Below, in pieces: positions 1,574 through 62,479 of a DNA stretch of 64,000 nt (position 1 is the first letter of the stretch; every line of letters starts with the position of its first letter). The stretch lies in assembly GCF_014195655.1 (NCBI RefSeq), contig NZ_JACICD010000002.1:186001-250000 (forward strand), in the 5' to 3' direction. This stretch comes from Ancylobacter tetraedralis. GTDB lineage: Bacteria; Pseudomonadota; Alphaproteobacteria; Rhizobiales; Xanthobacteraceae. The translations under genes and the position numbers were made by a program. The notes under the pieces are model-generated. The model was not told the origin of the DNA. It ran no database searches and saw only the letters and a program-made list of their open reading frames with translations.

Positions 1574-1690
1574 CCCTCTCCCCCGCGGGGGAGAGGGTCG
1601 GGCTGAGGGGGAAGGCCGGGTCCATGACGGCCCGAACGGCTCGACCCCTCACCCGACGCCGCGCGGCGACCTCTCCCCGTCGGGGAGAGG
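1574..1690. repeat. Mosaic palindromic intergenic element between sbp and cysT
   Basis: Two GC-rich palindromes lie in the 217-base gap. The first, 1574-1597, is a perfect 24-base palindrome with CCCTCTCCCC as its left half and GGGGAGAGGG on the right. The second, 1670-1690, has ten-base arms CCTCTCCCCG and CGGGGAGAGG around a single T. Between them are the spacers TCGGGCTGAGGGGG and CCCCTCACCCGACG. The same modules recur at 62372-62479 and inside glcE at 39359-39475. Elements of this look are common between genes in Rhizobiales (recalled, not searched). On RNA it would fold into two strong hairpins and could reduce read-through from sbp into cysTW. Confidence 0.8.
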
Positions 1691-23051: not shown

Positions 23052-23063
23052 CGCACGCCGTCT

Positions 23064-37682: not shown

Positions 37683-39017
37683 TCACGCGGCGGCGGGCAG
37701 GGAGGGCAGGCCCGCCGGCAGCGGCCCGCCGGTCGCCCAGTCGAGCAGCTCGACCGTATGCACCACCGGGATCGCCGTCCCGCCGCCGATCTGCGTCATG
37801 CAGCCAATATTGCCGGCGGCGATGATCTGCGGGTCCGTGCGCTCGATATTGGCGACCTTGCGCGCGCGCAGGCGCCCGGCGATCTCCGGCTGCAATATGT
37901 TGTAGGTGCCGGCCGAGCCGCAGCACAGGTGCCCCTCGGCGGGCTCCAGCACAGTGAAGCCGACCGACGACAGCAGCGTCTTCGGCGCGGTGCGCACGCG
38001 CTGGCCGTGCTGCAGCGAGCAGGCCGAATGATAGGCGACGCGGATGCCGGCGGCGATGACCGGCACCGGCAGCTCGCGCTCGGCAAGAAACTCGCTCACA
38101 TCCTTCGCCAGCGCCGAGACCCTGGCGGCGCGCGCGGCATAGGCCGGCTCACCGCGCAGCATGTGGCCGTAATCCTTGATGGTGGTGCCGCAGCCGGAGG
38201 TGGTGACGAGGATGGCGTCCAGCCCTCCGCGTTCCTGGCCCTCGCCCTCGATCTCGCGCGACCAGGCGTCGACATTGGCGCGCGCATTGGCCAGCGCCAG
38301 TTCCTCCTTGCCCATGTGGTGGGTGAGCGAGCCGCAGCAGCCTCCGCCCACCGGGCGCACGATCTCCACGCCCATGCGGGTGAGCAGGCGAATCGCCGCG
38401 TCGTCGATATCCGGGCGCAGCACCGGCTGGGCGCAGCCGTCGAGCAGCGCGACGCGCGCGCGGCGCGGTCCCTTCGCCGCAAACCGCCGCTCGCCCTCGT
38501 TTGCCGAGCGGGTGGCCGGCCGCGCGGGCGCCAGCTTCAGCATGGCGGCGATGGGGCGCAGCGCCGGCACGCCCTCGAACAGCGGGGCGAAGGGCCGGGC
38601 CAGCATCGCCCCGCCGATCGCCAGGCGGAACAGCGCGCGGCTGGGCAGCACGCGCGCCAGCAGGGCCCGGGTGAACTTGTCGATCAGGGGGCGGTCATAG
38701 GTCTTCTCGACATGGTCGCGGGCATGGTCGATCAGGTGCATGTAGTGCACGCCCGAGGGGCACGTGGTCATGCAGGACAGGCAGGACAGGCAGCGGTCGA
38801 CATGGCGCGCGACCTCGACGGTGGCCGGCCGATCATTTTCCAGCATGTCCTTGATGAGGTAGATGCGCCCGCGCGGGGAATCCAGCTCGTCGCCCAGCAG
38901 CACATAGGTCGGGCAGGTGGCGGTGCAGAAGCCGCAATGCACGCAGGCACGCAGCACCTGTTCGGACCTCGCCATCTGCGGATCGGCGAGCTGGGCGAGG
39001 GAGAAGTTGGTCTGCAT
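37683..39017 (-). CDS. glcF: Glycolate oxidase iron-sulfur subunit GlcF
   Basis: GlcF passes electrons from the flavin subunits of glycolate dehydrogenase to the quinone pool. It has 444 residues. Two 4Fe-4S motifs are HCGFCTATCPTYVLLGDE and CLSCLSCMTTCPSGV. Two CCG-type motifs, GGGCCGSLTHHMG and HLCCGSAGTYN, follow. The start at 39017 is three bases after the glcE stop, so the two are tightly coupled. Confidence 0.96.
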   Translation of the reverse strand: MQTNFSLAQLADPQMARSEQVLRACVHCGFCTATCPTYVLLGDELDSPRGRIYLIKDMLENDRPATVEVARHVDRCLSCLSCMTTCPSGVHYMHLIDHARDHVEKTYDRPLIDKFTRALLARVLPSRALFRLAIGGAMLARPFAPLFEGVPALRPIAAMLKLAPARPATRSANEGERRFAAKGPRRARVALLDGCAQPVLRPDIDDAAIRLLTRMGVEIVRPVGGGCCGSLTHHMGKEELALANARANVDAWSREIEGEGQERGGLDAILVTTSGCGTTIKDYGHMLRGEPAYAARAARVSALAKDVSEFLAERELPVPVIAAGIRVAYHSACSLQHGQRVRTAPKTLLSSVGFTVLEPAEGHLCCGSAGTYNILQPEIAGRLRARKVANIERTDPQIIAAGNIGCMTQIGGGTAIPVVHTVELLDWATGGPLPAGLPSLPAAA

Positions 39018-39020
39018 CGC

Positions 39021-40394
39021 TCACATCCCCGCATACATGCGGCCGGGGCTCAGCACCCCCGCCGGGTCGAAGCCGCTCTTCATCCGCTTCACCAGCGCGC
39101 CCGTCACAGCGTCCAGCGGCTGGAACACCTCCTGCGCCGCGCGTACCGGGGCGCCAGCGCGGATCAGCGTGGCGTGCCCGCCGCCGGTGGCGCTCACCGC
39201 CGGACGGATGAGCGGCGCGTGCGGCTCGATGCCGGGCATCTCGATCCAGACCAGCCCGCCGGACCAGTCATAGAAGCAGCGCCCGCCGACCGCGCGGACC
39301 GCGGCCCCGATCCGCGCACCCGCCATGGGCGCGACCGAAACGCGCCAGATGGCGGCAACCTCCCCCTCCCCCCCGGGGAGAGGGACGGGTGAGGGGGATG
39401 CCGCGATTGCCTCGCCCGCCGCGCTGCCCGCGCCGACCTCTCCCGCACGGAGAGATACAAGAGGAGAGACAAGAGGGGCGGCGAACGGTTCCACATCGCG
39501 CAGCGCCCGCCAGAAGGCGCGCGAGGCGTCGGCATCGAGAAAGGCGAGCTCGCCGCGCGCGCGCAGCAGTGCCTCCAGCTTGCCGCGCCGGTGCAGGATG
39601 GAGGGCTGCACGCCTTCCAGCCGCAGCGCCGTCACCGAACGTCCCGCGCCCGCCACGGCGGGGAGGCGGGAGACGACATCCGCCGGCAGATGGGCGGCGC
39701 CGGACACGTCGTAATAGGAGCCCACCGCCGCGCTCATGGCGCTGGCGGCGGCGTCATCGTCGAGGCCGAGGATCAGCAGCGTCTCCACTGTCTCGGGTCG
39801 CGGCAGCACCTTGATGGTGATTTCGGTGAAGGCGGCGAAGGTGCCGTGCGAGCCGGCGAGGCCGCGCGGCAGGTCGTAACCCGTGACATTCTTCACCACC
39901 CGCCCGCCGGCCTTGAACGCCTCGCCCCGGCCGGAAACGGCGCGGATGCCGAGCGCATGGTCGCGCGCGGCGCCCGCGCTCGGGCGTCGCGGGCCGGCGA
40001 GGTTGCAGGCGAGCAGCCCGCCCAGCGTGCCTTCGCCCGGGGGCTGGCCGAGCAGCGGGCCGAAATCCATCGGCTCGAACGCCATCATCTGGTTGGCACC
40101 GGCGACTAGCGCCTCGATCTCGGCGACGGGGGTGCCGGCCCGCGCGCTCAGCACGAGTTCTTCCGGCTCATAGAGCGTGACGCCGGTCAGCGCGGCGAGC
40201 TCCAGCGTAAAGTCGGTCTGGATGGCGCGGCCCAGCGCCGCCTTGGAGCGGCGGCCGGCCACGTCCAGCGTGCGGCCCTCGCTCGCGGCCCAGCGCACGG
40301 TCTCGGCGACGTCGGCCTCGTCGCGCGGGCACAGGCGATCGCCCGATATGGCGGCACTAGCGGCACGCGTGGCAGCACTCATGGCAGCACTCAT
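39021..40394 (-). CDS. glcE: Glycolate oxidase FAD-binding subunit GlcE, with in-frame insertion
   Basis: GlcE is the second flavin subunit of glycolate oxidase. It has 457 residues; relatives have about 400-415. FAD-binding segments are EGTLGGLLACNLAGP and VVKNVTGYDLPRGLAGSHGT. Residues about 307-346, between ALRDVEPFA and AIWRVSVAP, are low-complexity (GSAAGEAIAASPSPVPLPGG) and coincide with a palindromic DNA repeat, which explains the extra length. I use the ATG at 40394, with GGAG upstream; the first twelve bases are duplicated, giving MSAAMSAAT. It starts eight bases after the deaminase gene. Confidence 0.92.
   Translation of the reverse strand: MSAAMSAATRAASAAISGDRLCPRDEADVAETVRWAASEGRTLDVAGRRSKAALGRAIQTDFTLELAALTGVTLYEPEELVLSARAGTPVAEIEALVAGANQMMAFEPMDFGPLLGQPPGEGTLGGLLACNLAGPRRPSAGAARDHALGIRAVSGRGEAFKAGGRVVKNVTGYDLPRGLAGSHGTFAAFTEITIKVLPRPETVETLLILGLDDDAAASAMSAAVGSYYDVSGAAHLPADVVSRLPAVAGAGRSVTALRLEGVQPSILHRRGKLEALLRARGELAFLDADASRAFWRALRDVEPFAAPLVSPLVSLRAGEVGAGSAAGEAIAASPSPVPLPGGEGEVAAIWRVSVAPMAGARIGAAVRAVGGRCFYDWSGGLVWIEMPGIEPHAPLIRPAVSATGGGHATLIRAGAPVRAAQEVFQPLDAVTGALVKRMKSGFDPAGVLSPGRMYAGM
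39359..39475. repeat. Palindromic repeat element inserted in frame within glcE
   Basis: The piece has the modules of the intergenic elements at 1574-1690 and 62372-62479. On the plus strand these are a hairpin near 39365-39384 (CCTCCCCC then GGGGAGAGGG), the spacer GGGTGAGGGGG, and at 39438-39454 a hairpin CTCTCC/GGAGAG. Its length is compatible with the glcE frame and it contains no stop, so the gene stays open. It adds about 40 residues at a point where relatives have none (family length recalled). Confidence 0.75.
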
Positions 40395-40402
40395 GGCAGG
40401 GA

Positions 40403-41830
40403 TCACTCCGACAGCGCGGCCAGCCGCGCGGCATGCTGGTTGTGCTCGGCGACGACGGCGGCCAAGTCGATGGTGACGACCTCGCCATGGGCGACGATCG
40501 GGCGGCCATGCACGACGGTGAAGGCCGCGCGGCCGGGCGTGCAGAACAGTGCCGCCGCCACCGGGTCCGAGAGGCCGCCGGCAAAGGCGACGTCGTCGAG
40601 CCGGAGCGCGAAGAAATCGGCGCATTTGCCCACTTCCAGCGCGCCGATATCGCTGCGCCCGAGCACCGCTGCCCCGCCCAGCGTGGCCAGTTCCAGTGCC
40701 TCGCGGGCGGTCATCCACTCGGCATCGCGCGCGGGGTCGGAGGTGGACAGCGTGGTGTCCGGGCCTTCGGGCGGGCGCAGGGAGATCTGCAGCCGCGCGA
40801 GCAGCAGGGCCTGGCGCGCCTCGCCCAGCATGTTGTTGCCGTCATTGGAGGCCGAGCCGTCGACGCCGAGCCCGACCTTCACGCCGGCGCGTCGATATGC
40901 CTTCACCGGCGCGATGCCGGAGGCGAGCCGCATGTTGGAGGATGGGCAATGGCACACGCCCACCCCCGCGCTGGCAAAGCAGCCGATCTCATGCGCGTTC
41001 ACATGCACCGCGTGAGCGAACCAGACATCGTCGCCGAGCCAGCCCAGTTCCTCCATATAGGCGACCGGCCGCTTGCCGAAGCGCGCCAGCGTGAAGCGCT
41101 CCTCGTCGATGGTCTCGGCGAGGTGGGTGTGCAGGCGCACCCCCTTCGCCCGTGCCAGCGCCGCGCTGTCGCGCATCAGCTCCGGCGTCACCGAGAAGGG
41201 CGAGCAGGGGGCGAGGGCGATCTGCAGCAACGAGCCGGGCGCGGCGTCGTGATAGCGGGCGATGACGCGCTCGGAATCAGCGAGGATGTCGTCTTCCCGC
41301 TCCACGCAATCATCGGGCGGCAGGCCGCCGCGGGACTGGCCGAGCGACATGGAGCCGCGCGAGACCATGAAGCGCAGGCCGATTTCGCGCGCCGCCGCGA
41401 TCTGATCGTCGACCGTGCAGCCATTGCGGAACACATAGGCGTGGTCGAAGCAGGTGGTGCAGCCGGTCAGCGCCAGCTCGGCGAGGCCGGCCAGCGTCGC
41501 GGTGCGCGAGGCCTCCGGCGTGCGCGCGGCCCAGCGGCGATAATGCGCGGTGAGCCAGCGGAACAGGTTGACGTTCTGGGCGACCGGCAGGTTGCGCGTC
41601 AGCGTCTGGTCGAGGTGATGATGGCAATTGACCAGCCCCGGCAGCACCACATGGCCGTCAAGGTCGAGAATGCGATCGGCCGTGGTGGGCAGGGTTTCGC
41701 TCGGCCCCACGGCTTCGATGATCCCGTTGCGGGCGAACAGCCCACCCCCCGCGATCTCGCGGCGCGCGCCGTCCATGGTGACGAGTACCGTGGCATTCCG
41801 GACGAGGAGTGTGCGGTCGGGCGGGTTCAT
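40403..41830 (-). CDS. 8-oxoguanine deaminase-type amidohydrolase
   Basis: This 475-residue zinc amidohydrolase of the TrzA/AtzB/guanine deaminase group most resembles 8-oxoguanine deaminase (EC 3.5.4.32), which turns 8-oxoguanine into urate. Metal ligands are in GLVNCHHHLDQTLTR, HTHLAETID, HAVHVN and LGVDGSASND. It lies between glcD (seven bases) and glcE (eight bases) in one operon. That placement is odd for a purine enzyme and may link glyoxylate from purine breakdown with glycolate metabolism (inference). Other purine or pterin substrates are possible. Confidence 0.82.
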   Translation of the reverse strand: MNPPDRTLLVRNATVLVTMDGARREIAGGGLFARNGIIEAVGPSETLPTTADRILDLDGHVVLPGLVNCHHHLDQTLTRNLPVAQNVNLFRWLTAHYRRWAARTPEASRTATLAGLAELALTGCTTCFDHAYVFRNGCTVDDQIAAAREIGLRFMVSRGSMSLGQSRGGLPPDDCVEREDDILADSERVIARYHDAAPGSLLQIALAPCSPFSVTPELMRDSAALARAKGVRLHTHLAETIDEERFTLARFGKRPVAYMEELGWLGDDVWFAHAVHVNAHEIGCFASAGVGVCHCPSSNMRLASGIAPVKAYRRAGVKVGLGVDGSASNDGNNMLGEARQALLLARLQISLRPPEGPDTTLSTSDPARDAEWMTAREALELATLGGAAVLGRSDIGALEVGKCADFFALRLDDVAFAGGLSDPVAAALFCTPGRAAFTVVHGRPIVAHGEVVTIDLAAVVAEHNQHAARLAALSE

Positions 41831-41837
41831 GAGGGGC

Positions 41838-43334
41838 TCAGAATCGGGGAATGTCGGGGAAGGGCAGCTGGCCGGCGCTCACATGCATGCGCCCGAGCTC
41901 GGCGCAGCGGTGCAGCACCGGGAACACCTTGCCGGGGTTGAGCAGCGCCTCGGGGTCGAAGGCGCATTTCAGCCGCTGCTGATGGGCGAGGTCGACCTCG
42001 TTGAACATGGAGGGCATGAGGTCGCGCTTCTCGACGCCGACGCCGTGCTCGCCCGTCAGCACGCCGCCGACCTCGACGCAGAGCAGCAGGATATCGGCCC
42101 CGAAGGCCTCCGCCTTGTCGAGTTCGCCGGGTTTGTTGGCGTCGTAGCAGATGAGCGGATGAAGATTGCCGTCGCCGGCATGGAAGACATTGCCGCAGCG
42201 CAGCCCGTATTTGACCGACATCGCCTCCATGCGGCTCAGCACCAGCGGCAGCGCCTTGCGCGGAATGGTGCCGTCCATGCAGAGATAATCCGGCGAGATG
42301 CGCCCCACCGCCGGGAAGGCCGCCTTGCGCCCGGCCCAGAAGGCGACGCGCTCGGCCTCGCTGGTGGAGGCGCGCAAGGTCATGCAGCCGAGCCCGTTGC
42401 CGATCTCGGCGACGCGCTCGATGAGGTGATTCACCTCCGCCTCCGGCCCGTCCAGCTCGACGATCAGCAACGCCTCGACATCGAGCGGGTAGCCGGCTCC
42501 CAGAAAGGCCTCGGCCGCGTGCACCATCATGCGGTCCATCATCTCCATGCCGCCGGGGATGATACCGGCGGCGATGATGGCGGCGACGCAGGCGCCCGCC
42601 GCCTCGGAGGAGGGGAAGCCGAGCAGCACGGCGCGCGCCGTCTCCGGCTTCTTCAGAATGCGCACGGTGACCTCGGTGACGACGCCGAGCAGCCCTTCCG
42701 AGCCCACGATGAGGCCGAGCAGGTCGAGCCCGCCGGAATCGAGATGCTTGCCCCCGAGGCGGATGATCTCGCCCGTGATCAGCACCATCTCGACGCCGAG
42801 GACGTTATTGGTGGTGAGGCCGTATTTCAGGCAGTGCACGCCGCCGGAATTCTCCCCCACATTGCCGCCAATGGTGCAGGCGATCTGCGAGGAGGGGTCG
42901 GGTGCGTAATAGAAGCCGTGATCGGCCACCGCGGTGGTGATGCCCAGATTGGTCACGCCCGGCTGGGCGATCACGGTGCGGTTCTCGAAATCGATGTCGA
43001 GAATCCGGTTGAACTTGCCCATGCCGAGCAGGATGCCGTCCGCCAGCGGCAGCGCGCCGCCCGATAGCGAGGTGCCCGCCCCGCGCGGCACCACGGGTAT
43101 GGCGTTGGCATTGGCATAGGCCAGCACCTGCGACACCTGCTGCGTGGTGGAGGGCAGCACGACCACCAGCGGCAACTGGCGATAGGCGGTGACGCCGTCG
43201 CTCTCGAAAGGGCGCATCTCGGTCTCGGTATCGATCACCCCCTCGCCGGGGACGATCTCGCGCAGCGCCGCGACGATCTCCGACCGGCGGGCCAGCACGT
43301 CGGCTTTTGGCGCCGGCATGACGAGACCGGACAT
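41838..43334 (-). CDS. glcD: Glycolate oxidase FAD-linked subunit GlcD
   Basis: GlcD carries the FAD that oxidises glycolate to glyoxylate. It has 498 residues from the ATG at 43334, which has GAGGAG at good spacing; an in-frame start 20 codons earlier is worse. The FAD-binding domain shows VPRGAGTSLSGGALP and GENSGGVHCLKYGLT. The C-terminal catalytic part has HAGDGNLHPLI and GEHGVGVEKRDLM. It is the first gene of a minus-strand operon glcD-deaminase-glcE-glcF. Confidence 0.96.
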   Translation of the reverse strand: MSGLVMPAPKADVLARRSEIVAALREIVPGEGVIDTETEMRPFESDGVTAYRQLPLVVVLPSTTQQVSQVLAYANANAIPVVPRGAGTSLSGGALPLADGILLGMGKFNRILDIDFENRTVIAQPGVTNLGITTAVADHGFYYAPDPSSQIACTIGGNVGENSGGVHCLKYGLTTNNVLGVEMVLITGEIIRLGGKHLDSGGLDLLGLIVGSEGLLGVVTEVTVRILKKPETARAVLLGFPSSEAAGACVAAIIAAGIIPGGMEMMDRMMVHAAEAFLGAGYPLDVEALLIVELDGPEAEVNHLIERVAEIGNGLGCMTLRASTSEAERVAFWAGRKAAFPAVGRISPDYLCMDGTIPRKALPLVLSRMEAMSVKYGLRCGNVFHAGDGNLHPLICYDANKPGELDKAEAFGADILLLCVEVGGVLTGEHGVGVEKRDLMPSMFNEVDLAHQQRLKCAFDPEALLNPGKVFPVLHRCAELGRMHVSAGQLPFPDIPRF

Positions 43335-43421
43335 GGCGTTTCTCCTCGTTCCCGGCTGGCGCTCTTGGCGGCGCGCATCTGGCTTTCGAGCCATTCTAGG
43401 GAAAAGCGCGCACGCTTCCTA

Positions 43422-58828: not shown

Positions 58829-59644
58829 CTAGGGCCGGAAGGCCGGCCCATGGGTGATGACCGGCCCGTCCGATACCTCGTTGCCGGTGGGATAGACACC
58901 GCCGAGCACATCGTCGAAATGCCGGCGCACCACGTCGTGGCAGCCGCAACTCATTGCCTTGAGCCGTTCCGGATCGCGCACCGTCAGCCGCCCGCGCCCG
59001 GGCTCCACCGCGCCGGAGCGGCGCAGGTGCTGCAGCACGCGGCTGACATAGGAGCGCCCCACCGCCAGCATCGAGGCGAGCTGGTCCTGGGTGAGGCGCA
59101 CGCTGTCCTCGCCGGTGCGGTCGAGCGCGGCGAGCAGCCATTTGGCCGCGCGCTGCTCGATGGTGTGCGCGCCGTTGCAGGCCACCGACTGGAACACCTG
59201 TGCCAGCAGGCAGTCGGCATAGCGGGCGAAGAGGTTGGCGAGCGGCGGGGAGGTCTGCTTGGCGCGCTCCAGCTCGGCGACGTCGAGCCGCAGCAGCGGG
59301 CCGCCGATCTGCACCACGGCGCGGGCATAGGCGGGCAGCCGCCCGTGCGAGACGATGCCGCCGACGGCCCCCTCGCGGCCGATCGAGGTGATCTCGACCA
59401 GACGCCCGTCCTCCATCATCACCATGAAGGAGACGAGGGTCTGGCCGCAGGGAAAATAGACCGAGCGCACATCGTCGCCCGGCTCGTAGAGCACCGTGCC
59501 GGCGGCGCGGTCGATGCGCCGCAGCTGGTGGCGGATCAGCAGGAAATCGGCCGCGCGCAGGGCGCCGATGAGGTTGTTGCCGCCGGAGGAGGGTTCGGCG
59601 ACATTGGCCACCGGCTCCGAAAGCGATCCCGATGCGTGCGTCAT
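58829..59644 (-). CDS. Crp/Fnr family transcriptional regulator
   Basis: This 271-residue regulator has a cyclic-nucleotide-binding-like fold at residues about 30-150 (SVYFPCGQTLVSFMVMMEDG, VGREGAVGG-like ITSIGREGAVGG). A winged helix at about 180-235 shows LTQDQLASMLAVGRSYVSRV. The Fnr iron-sulfur cysteines are missing; the only Cys pair is in MSCGCHDVV near the C-terminus. The signal is unknown. GGGGAG precedes the ATG at 59644. It diverges from a histidine kinase and may control it. Confidence 0.9.
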   Translation of the reverse strand: MTHASGSLSEPVANVAEPSSGGNNLIGALRAADFLLIRHQLRRIDRAAGTVLYEPGDDVRSVYFPCGQTLVSFMVMMEDGRLVEITSIGREGAVGGIVSHGRLPAYARAVVQIGGPLLRLDVAELERAKQTSPPLANLFARYADCLLAQVFQSVACNGAHTIEQRAAKWLLAALDRTGEDSVRLTQDQLASMLAVGRSYVSRVLQHLRRSGAVEPGRGRLTVRDPERLKAMSCGCHDVVRRHFDDVLGGVYPTGNEVSDGPVITHGPAFRP

Positions 59645-62371: not shown

Positions 62372-62479
62372 CCTCTCCCCGAGGGGGAGAGGGCGCCGCG
62401 TAATGGCGGGCGAGGGGGGCTCTCCGGTGCCGACGGCAACAGGTTCCTCACCCCAGCCCTCTCCCCGGCGGTGAGAGGG
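62372..62479. repeat. Mosaic palindromic intergenic element between the dihydroorotase gene and truA
   Basis: The first hairpin, 62372-62392, is CCTCTCCCC, GAG, GGGGAGAGG. The second, 62457-62479, has CCCTCTC and GAGAGGG as outer arms. The spacer includes CCTCACCCCAGCCC. It lies between convergent genes, 25 bases after the dihydroorotase-like stop, and shares modules with 1574-1690 and the glcE insert. It may also terminate both transcripts. Confidence 0.8.

Follow-up and report, generated by a model that had tools for sequence, protein, structure and literature searches.

Palindromic repeats that have become part of coding sequence are already known from several groups of bacteria. According to the account in PMC2229807, the palindromic RPEs of Rickettsia, about 100-150 bp long, are found between genes and in frame within conserved proteins, and the MITE-like ERIC/RU and Correia elements have been fused in frame with genes, yielding coding sequence. 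REPs of the GTAG and CGTC types are reported inside genes of several species, many of them in the DNA repair genes uvrA, uvrB and recB; X. campestris and X. oryzae carry different REPs near the same recB site, and the CGTC type is described as mainly alphaproteobacterial (PMC3733652). The CIR elements of Caulobacter and Brucella, ~110 bp in length, carry GANTC and stops in all frames and are reported not to be intragenic (PMC2229807).

The case described here, in the glycolate oxidase gene glcE of Ancylobacter tetraedralis, is a variant of this known kind of coding palindrome, which includes the Rickettsia RPEs and the intragenic REPs. The sequence-only reading of this DNA had cited Rickettsia as the place where palindromes inside genes are known; the precedent holds, but genes of other bacteria harbor such palindromes as well (PMC3733652, PMC2229807). 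The repeat in question, which we call family A, resembles the RPEs in location and size, since it also lies in frame within conserved proteins (glcE and uvrC), but it belongs to another host order and has a GC-rich three-hairpin anatomy. Likewise, it resembles the ERIC/RU and Correia elements by description and differs in taxa. Like the CIRs, family A consists of ~110 bp inverted repeats in alphaproteobacteria; however, its consensus, inspected by eye, lacks GANTC, and 35 sampled genomic copies had on average 2.9 of six frames open. Unlike the GTAG and CGTC REPs, family A carries neither tag, and the features of the CGTC type given in PMC3733652 (a CGTC, TGTC or CCTC tag by an AT-starting stem, and a CCA tail) were not seen by eye in its consensus. 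Titles and abstract beginnings of the literature on Ancylobacter repeats and intragenic REPs contained nothing on glcE. In PMC3733652 we saw no mention of this gene, and neither two unrelated families in one loop nor interspecies recombination of insert-bearing alleles.

The analyzed window is the whole stretch of 64,000 nucleotides, and its relevant features are collected in Table 1. The glcE product matched the NCBIfam family NF008439 (1e-77) with 261 bits over two stretches, below the curated cut-off of 284, and it also matched Pfam FAD_binding_4. The glcF start codon lies 3 bases past the glcE stop. A gene for 8-oxoguanine deaminase (40403-41830, minus strand) separates glcD from glcE and is read in the same direction as both.

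Table 1. Genes, inserted segment and family A copies in the window (positions are those of the window)
Feature	Position	Strand	Details
glcF	37683..39017	-	NF008434 GlcF, 1.1e-138
glcE, glycolate oxidase FAD-binding subunit, insert-bearing	39021..40394	-	457 aa, stop included in coordinates
glcD	41838..43394	-	NF008408 GlcD, 6.6e-206
Inserted segment in glcE, residues 307-345, between DVEPFAA and AAIWRVS	39361..39476	-	No segment this long in 22 of 30 Ancylobacter genomes or 101 of 101 outside loci
Family A element in glcE, model positions 1-108	39363..39457	- (glcE's strand)	R1 38.0 bits, E 4.1e-5 (window)
12-nt tandem duplication, insert end nearer glcE start	39452..39475	.	Direct repeat D3, 92%; reads PLVSPLVSL
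Family A copy, taken as intergenic	1576..1690	-	R1 75.9 bits; member of model
Family A copy	62372..62478	+	R1 78.2 bits; member of model; G084 has a copy at the same place

The extra residues of GlcE fall in a loop flanked by the conserved motifs DVEPFA and AAIWRVS, and this loop is encoded here by 129 nt (43 aa). Among 30 Ancylobacter genomes, it measures 36 nt in 15, 18 nt in seven and 69-147 nt in eight, the other long loops being those of G084 (84 nt), G130 (138 nt), G128 (123 nt), G142 (132 nt), G022 (147 nt), G140 (126 nt) and G103 (69 nt). Outside the genus, all 101 loci, some of which represent one contig fetched twice, have loops of 15-42 nt. The earlier claim that GlcE is longer than usual is therefore correct, and the proposed alignment does give a clean gap in most relatives; at wide distance, none of the loci searched carries the same segment with conserved residues. 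Loop length is a multiple of three in all 30 Ancylobacter genomes. Minority insertions of at least three residues in Ancylobacter GlcE are confined to the loop, with two exceptions elsewhere in the protein, namely a C-terminal spot (3-4 aa in five genomes) and the variable N-terminus (to about residue 15).

In an AlphaFold2 prediction of GlcE from 38 sequences (mean pLDDT 79.8), residues 312-341 form the sole internal stretch with pLDDT below 50. The predicted loop is disordered and connects helix 288-299 to strand 349-353 in the C-terminal part of the protein. Among solved structures, D-lactate dehydrogenases and their relatives have the most similar folds. The inserted peptide is most likely neutral filler.

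Family A is a ~108-bp repeat with three hairpins, of which the first is formed by CCTCTCCCC/GGGGAGAGG, the second is GC-rich and the third is formed by CCCTCTCC/GGAGAGGG; a GGTGAGGGG/CCCCTCACC pair is also present. A covariance model (R1) was constructed from 13 copies of this genome, including the two other window copies in Table 1 and one copy later placed in uvrC, with the glcE piece excluded. R1 recognized the glcE piece within the window and also in a search of the whole genome (E 3.2e-3), and by profile HMM the piece scored 23.8 bits, against a best score of 6.0 among 1000 dinucleotide shuffles. The corresponding loops of G140, G130 and G128 reached 74.4, 69.6 and 59.6 bits with R1, and in the HMM test none of 1000 shuffles attained the score of any of the four A inserts. 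These results bear out the assignment of the glcE piece to the family of the elements that had been noted at 1574-1690 and 62372-62479, and run against the possibility that its match is no better than that of shuffled GC-rich DNA. The proposed search with the intergenic repeat as query was run, as was its reverse. As a DNA query, the glcE piece retrieved at least 61 other matches, mostly to part of the query (best E 3.0e-7; 40 of 176 candidates scored), but it was not among the 71 matches listed at E <= 10 for the plain DNA query 1560-1700 (40 of 114 candidates scored). Accordingly, by sequence comparison the piece is a diverged member of family A.

Local slippage of GC-rich, proline- and glycine-rich coding sequence, with a chance likeness to the repeat, would be another origin of the segment, and the loop does expand by tandem duplication, as seen in the 12-nt duplication of Table 1 and in the GGEV repeats of G084. 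Moreover, the RNA stability of the glcE piece shows no clear excess over shuffled sequences (z -0.89; 34 of 200 as stable). Nevertheless, the order of parts of the element is complete from end to end in the glcE piece, its HMM score stands far above every shuffle, the same loop gives stronger family A matches in G140, G130 and G128, and a second repeat family is found at this same position. We regard slippage as highly improbable. Our preferred explanation, held with considerable confidence, is that a family A palindrome has been inserted in frame in the GlcE loop and that this loop has been reused by elements. The original proposal of an in-frame insertion is thereby supported and extended to eight of the 30 genomes, to two families and to uvrC. 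Its remark that the frame stays open agrees with the loop lengths, all of them multiples of three, but the open frame of glcE is weak evidence alone, since the sampled family A copies already show the average of open frames given above.

The in-frame inserts in the glcE loop belong to family A in this genome, G130, G128 and G140, and to family B in G142, G022 and G103. The loop of G084, the sister of the genome studied here (90-95% DNA identity across six window blocks), is probably a decayed A, a call that relies on its position and a few common words, as R1 does not detect this loop. It has 28 residues with GGEV repeats, compared with 43 residues here, and would fit quick in-frame wear.

Family B is a REP dimer of the CGTC type, unrelated to family A. 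When its copies were compared by eye with PMC3733652, with no model, the unit could be written as CCCTC-ATGGCCGGG-CTTGA-CCCGGCCAC-CCAG plus its mirror, and the first stem pair was often broken, with A facing C. By eye, family B has the features described for CGTC REPs, including the tag, an AT-starting stem of 8-9 bp, a loop of 4-5 bases, the CCA tail and the arrangement in dimers. In the glcE loop it encodes MAGLDPATQ...PRVKPGDE in G142 and G022, and a shortened version ending in ...GPRGKPGDE in G103. Family B was matched in 26 of the 30 genomes, with no match in this genome at E <= 0.001; family A was matched in 29. Since the best match in the genus to the B insert of G142 is that of G022 (90%, with other matches listed at no more than 88%), and since the three B loops have a common right flank, which was not found after the other B copies listed, family B probably entered the glcE loop once.

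We used two phylogenies to count the insertions of family A, a loop-free glcE+glcF tree of 33 rows and an rpoB tree of 28 of the 30 genomes (G139 and G140, with no rpoB match, were left out). The A carriers are on separate branches in both trees, and a single clade of A carriers was rejected in the glcE+glcF tree. An independent insertion in each A species, which was our first reading of the trees, was dropped for G130 and G128 because of the likeness of their inserts. The similarity score between these two inserts is 150, while neither exceeds 105 against 35 sampled genomic copies, a sample biased in that the copies of G128, G130 and G140 are among the best-scoring and a few of those from this genome are partial. 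The insert of this genome has its top matches in G130 (100) and G128 (78), followed by a best genomic copy at 64; from the side of G130 and G128 it ranks third and tenth, after genomic copies. The insert of G140 shows no close likeness to any of these three.

A pattern for the second hairpin, with up to three mismatches allowed, was matched in four of the 30 genomes, without mismatch in glcE of G128 and G130, with three mismatches in glcE here and with three at an unrelated place in G135. Judged on these similarities, G130 and G128 share a single A insertion, and the one in G140 is separate. The insert of this genome is probably the same insertion as in G130 and G128, the tie being only probable because its three hairpin mismatches equal those of the unrelated place in G135; the idea of an independent A insertion in this genome was dropped with the same reservation. 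As the second hairpin of G140 has an equal length, the reading frame could act as a filter for similar hairpin variants. The two families thus account for a minimum of three insertions. Family A entered once in G130 and G128, with this genome probably included, and once more in G140, and family B entered in G142, G022 and G103.

The insert-bearing allele of G130 seems to have come by recombination, because the 120 bp before the insert are G128-like at 14 of 24 informative sites, compared with 19 of 133 in other bins (Fisher 1.2e-5 for a tract picked after inspection). As far as the very edge of the insert, the flanks of G128 resemble those of its sister genomes, with no recombinant tract visible. 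The rpoB tree pairs the A carrier G128 with the B carrier G022 and nests them inside G142, which also has B, with support 100/100, and the glcE data reject a clade of G142 and G022 (AU p 0.004); an exchange of B for A at the loop within this group is therefore possible. For G128, repeated insertion of one element lineage may be an alternative.

The same scattered yet homologous inserts of G130, G128 and probably this genome could also be left from one ancient family A insertion that predates the divergence of most Ancylobacter species, with the 36-nt loops as scars of repeated loss. The rarity of loops of at least 36 nt outside the genus (two of 101) would agree with such a history. Yet the 22 insert-free loops have only the two lengths given above, and independent losses would leave scars of varied length; in addition, residues are common to the 36-nt loops, including those of G119 and G123, which branch outside the main clade. 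We consider this history unlikely, and in-frame insertion into a short loop remains our preferred explanation.

A second in-gene site for family A, by sequence, is the linker of uvrC. The copy at C4:268475 in this genome lies within the match to the RNase H domain and is flanked on either side by further uvrC domains. Linkers of 90-486 nt (L317-L346) in the 30 Ancylobacter genomes were compared with family A, and 20 gave a match at E <= 1e-3, some of them partial, and the two orientations accounted for eight and 12 of these; the match of this genome arises by construction, as its copy is part of R1. None of 1500 codon-shuffled linker sequences matched family A. From eight of the 30 best loci in this genome, which gave 67 matches in all, 10 open frames were scanned; among these, UvrC alone had family matches on two sides of the repeat and two further frames had them on one side.

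The glcE loop could also be a true target, whose DNA attracts several families; this would fit its three or more insertions from two families, as well as the presence of both orientations in the uvrC linker. Selection alone predicts the same pattern, however, if loops alone accept extra residues, and no common target sequence was noticed on unsystematic inspection. Such a target is, in our judgement, also unlikely. We would give somewhat more room, tentatively, to a broader reading in which the GlcE loop, like the UvrC linker, is a standing docking site, where unrelated palindromes are exchanged and insert-bearing coding alleles circulate between species, perhaps under selection on the enzyme, including the replacement of B by A at the same place in the G142, G022 and G128 group.

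Under the preferred explanation, a non-autonomous ~108-bp element of family A inserted into the short GlcE loop. The loop would tolerate added residues; in-frame, stop-free inserts would survive there, and inserts elsewhere in glcE would be purged. The A inserts of G130, G128 and probably this genome would descend from one insertion moved between species by homologous recombination, and in-frame duplications and deletions, as in G084, would then wear the loop.

This system provides a replicated natural experiment on the conversion of mobile DNA to protein, with one loop in thirty species, insert-free sites, two families and traces of wear. It would let one measure the neutrality of such peptides, and distinguish transposition from allele recombination as the means by which in-gene palindromes spread. 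It also cautions that insert-bearing orthologs scattered on a tree need not represent many insertions.

With respect to mobility, a Y1/RAYT transposase was searched for by PF01797 only and was found at E <= 0.001 in none of the 30 genomes, while a control search detected it in five of 14 genomes, and RAYT mobilization was rejected as a candidate. Neither a target duplication nor an exact junction was read for family A. Counts of R1 matches, taken on both strands with 131 candidates scored per genome, were 43-73 in the five genomes with A or presumed decayed A in glcE and had a median of 16 across the remaining 25; a link between copy number and the glcE insert (Mann-Whitney p 0.011) was given no weight, because of these limits of the counts and because kinship was uncorrected.

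Comparison of the window with G084 shows that the copy at 1576-1690 is opposite non-aligning sequence, while the 62372 copy is common to both genomes. At 23054-23062 and 58831-58835, G084 (C5, L347-L349) has an additional ~90-100 bp belonging to a different palindromic repeat, which is missing here. The 23054 repeat lies in G084 between two CTCTAG words, both of which are kept here, 10 bases apart; gain in G084 and loss here are both possible. At 43363-43368, G084 has ~90 bp of short tandem repeats that the genome studied here does not have.

Rfam gave no match anywhere in the window at gathering thresholds. Repeats similar to family A were found in 10 of 72,556 plasmid records, all from Azospirillum (~73% identity over 96-97% of the query), where they fall under no listed gene of an incomplete gene table; the range of family A may extend beyond Hyphomicrobiales. 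Finally, at the end of C12 (L009) and the start of C5 (L019) of G000, long C and G runs stand beside overlapping halves of a family A copy, and the assembly was probably broken inside one such copy.
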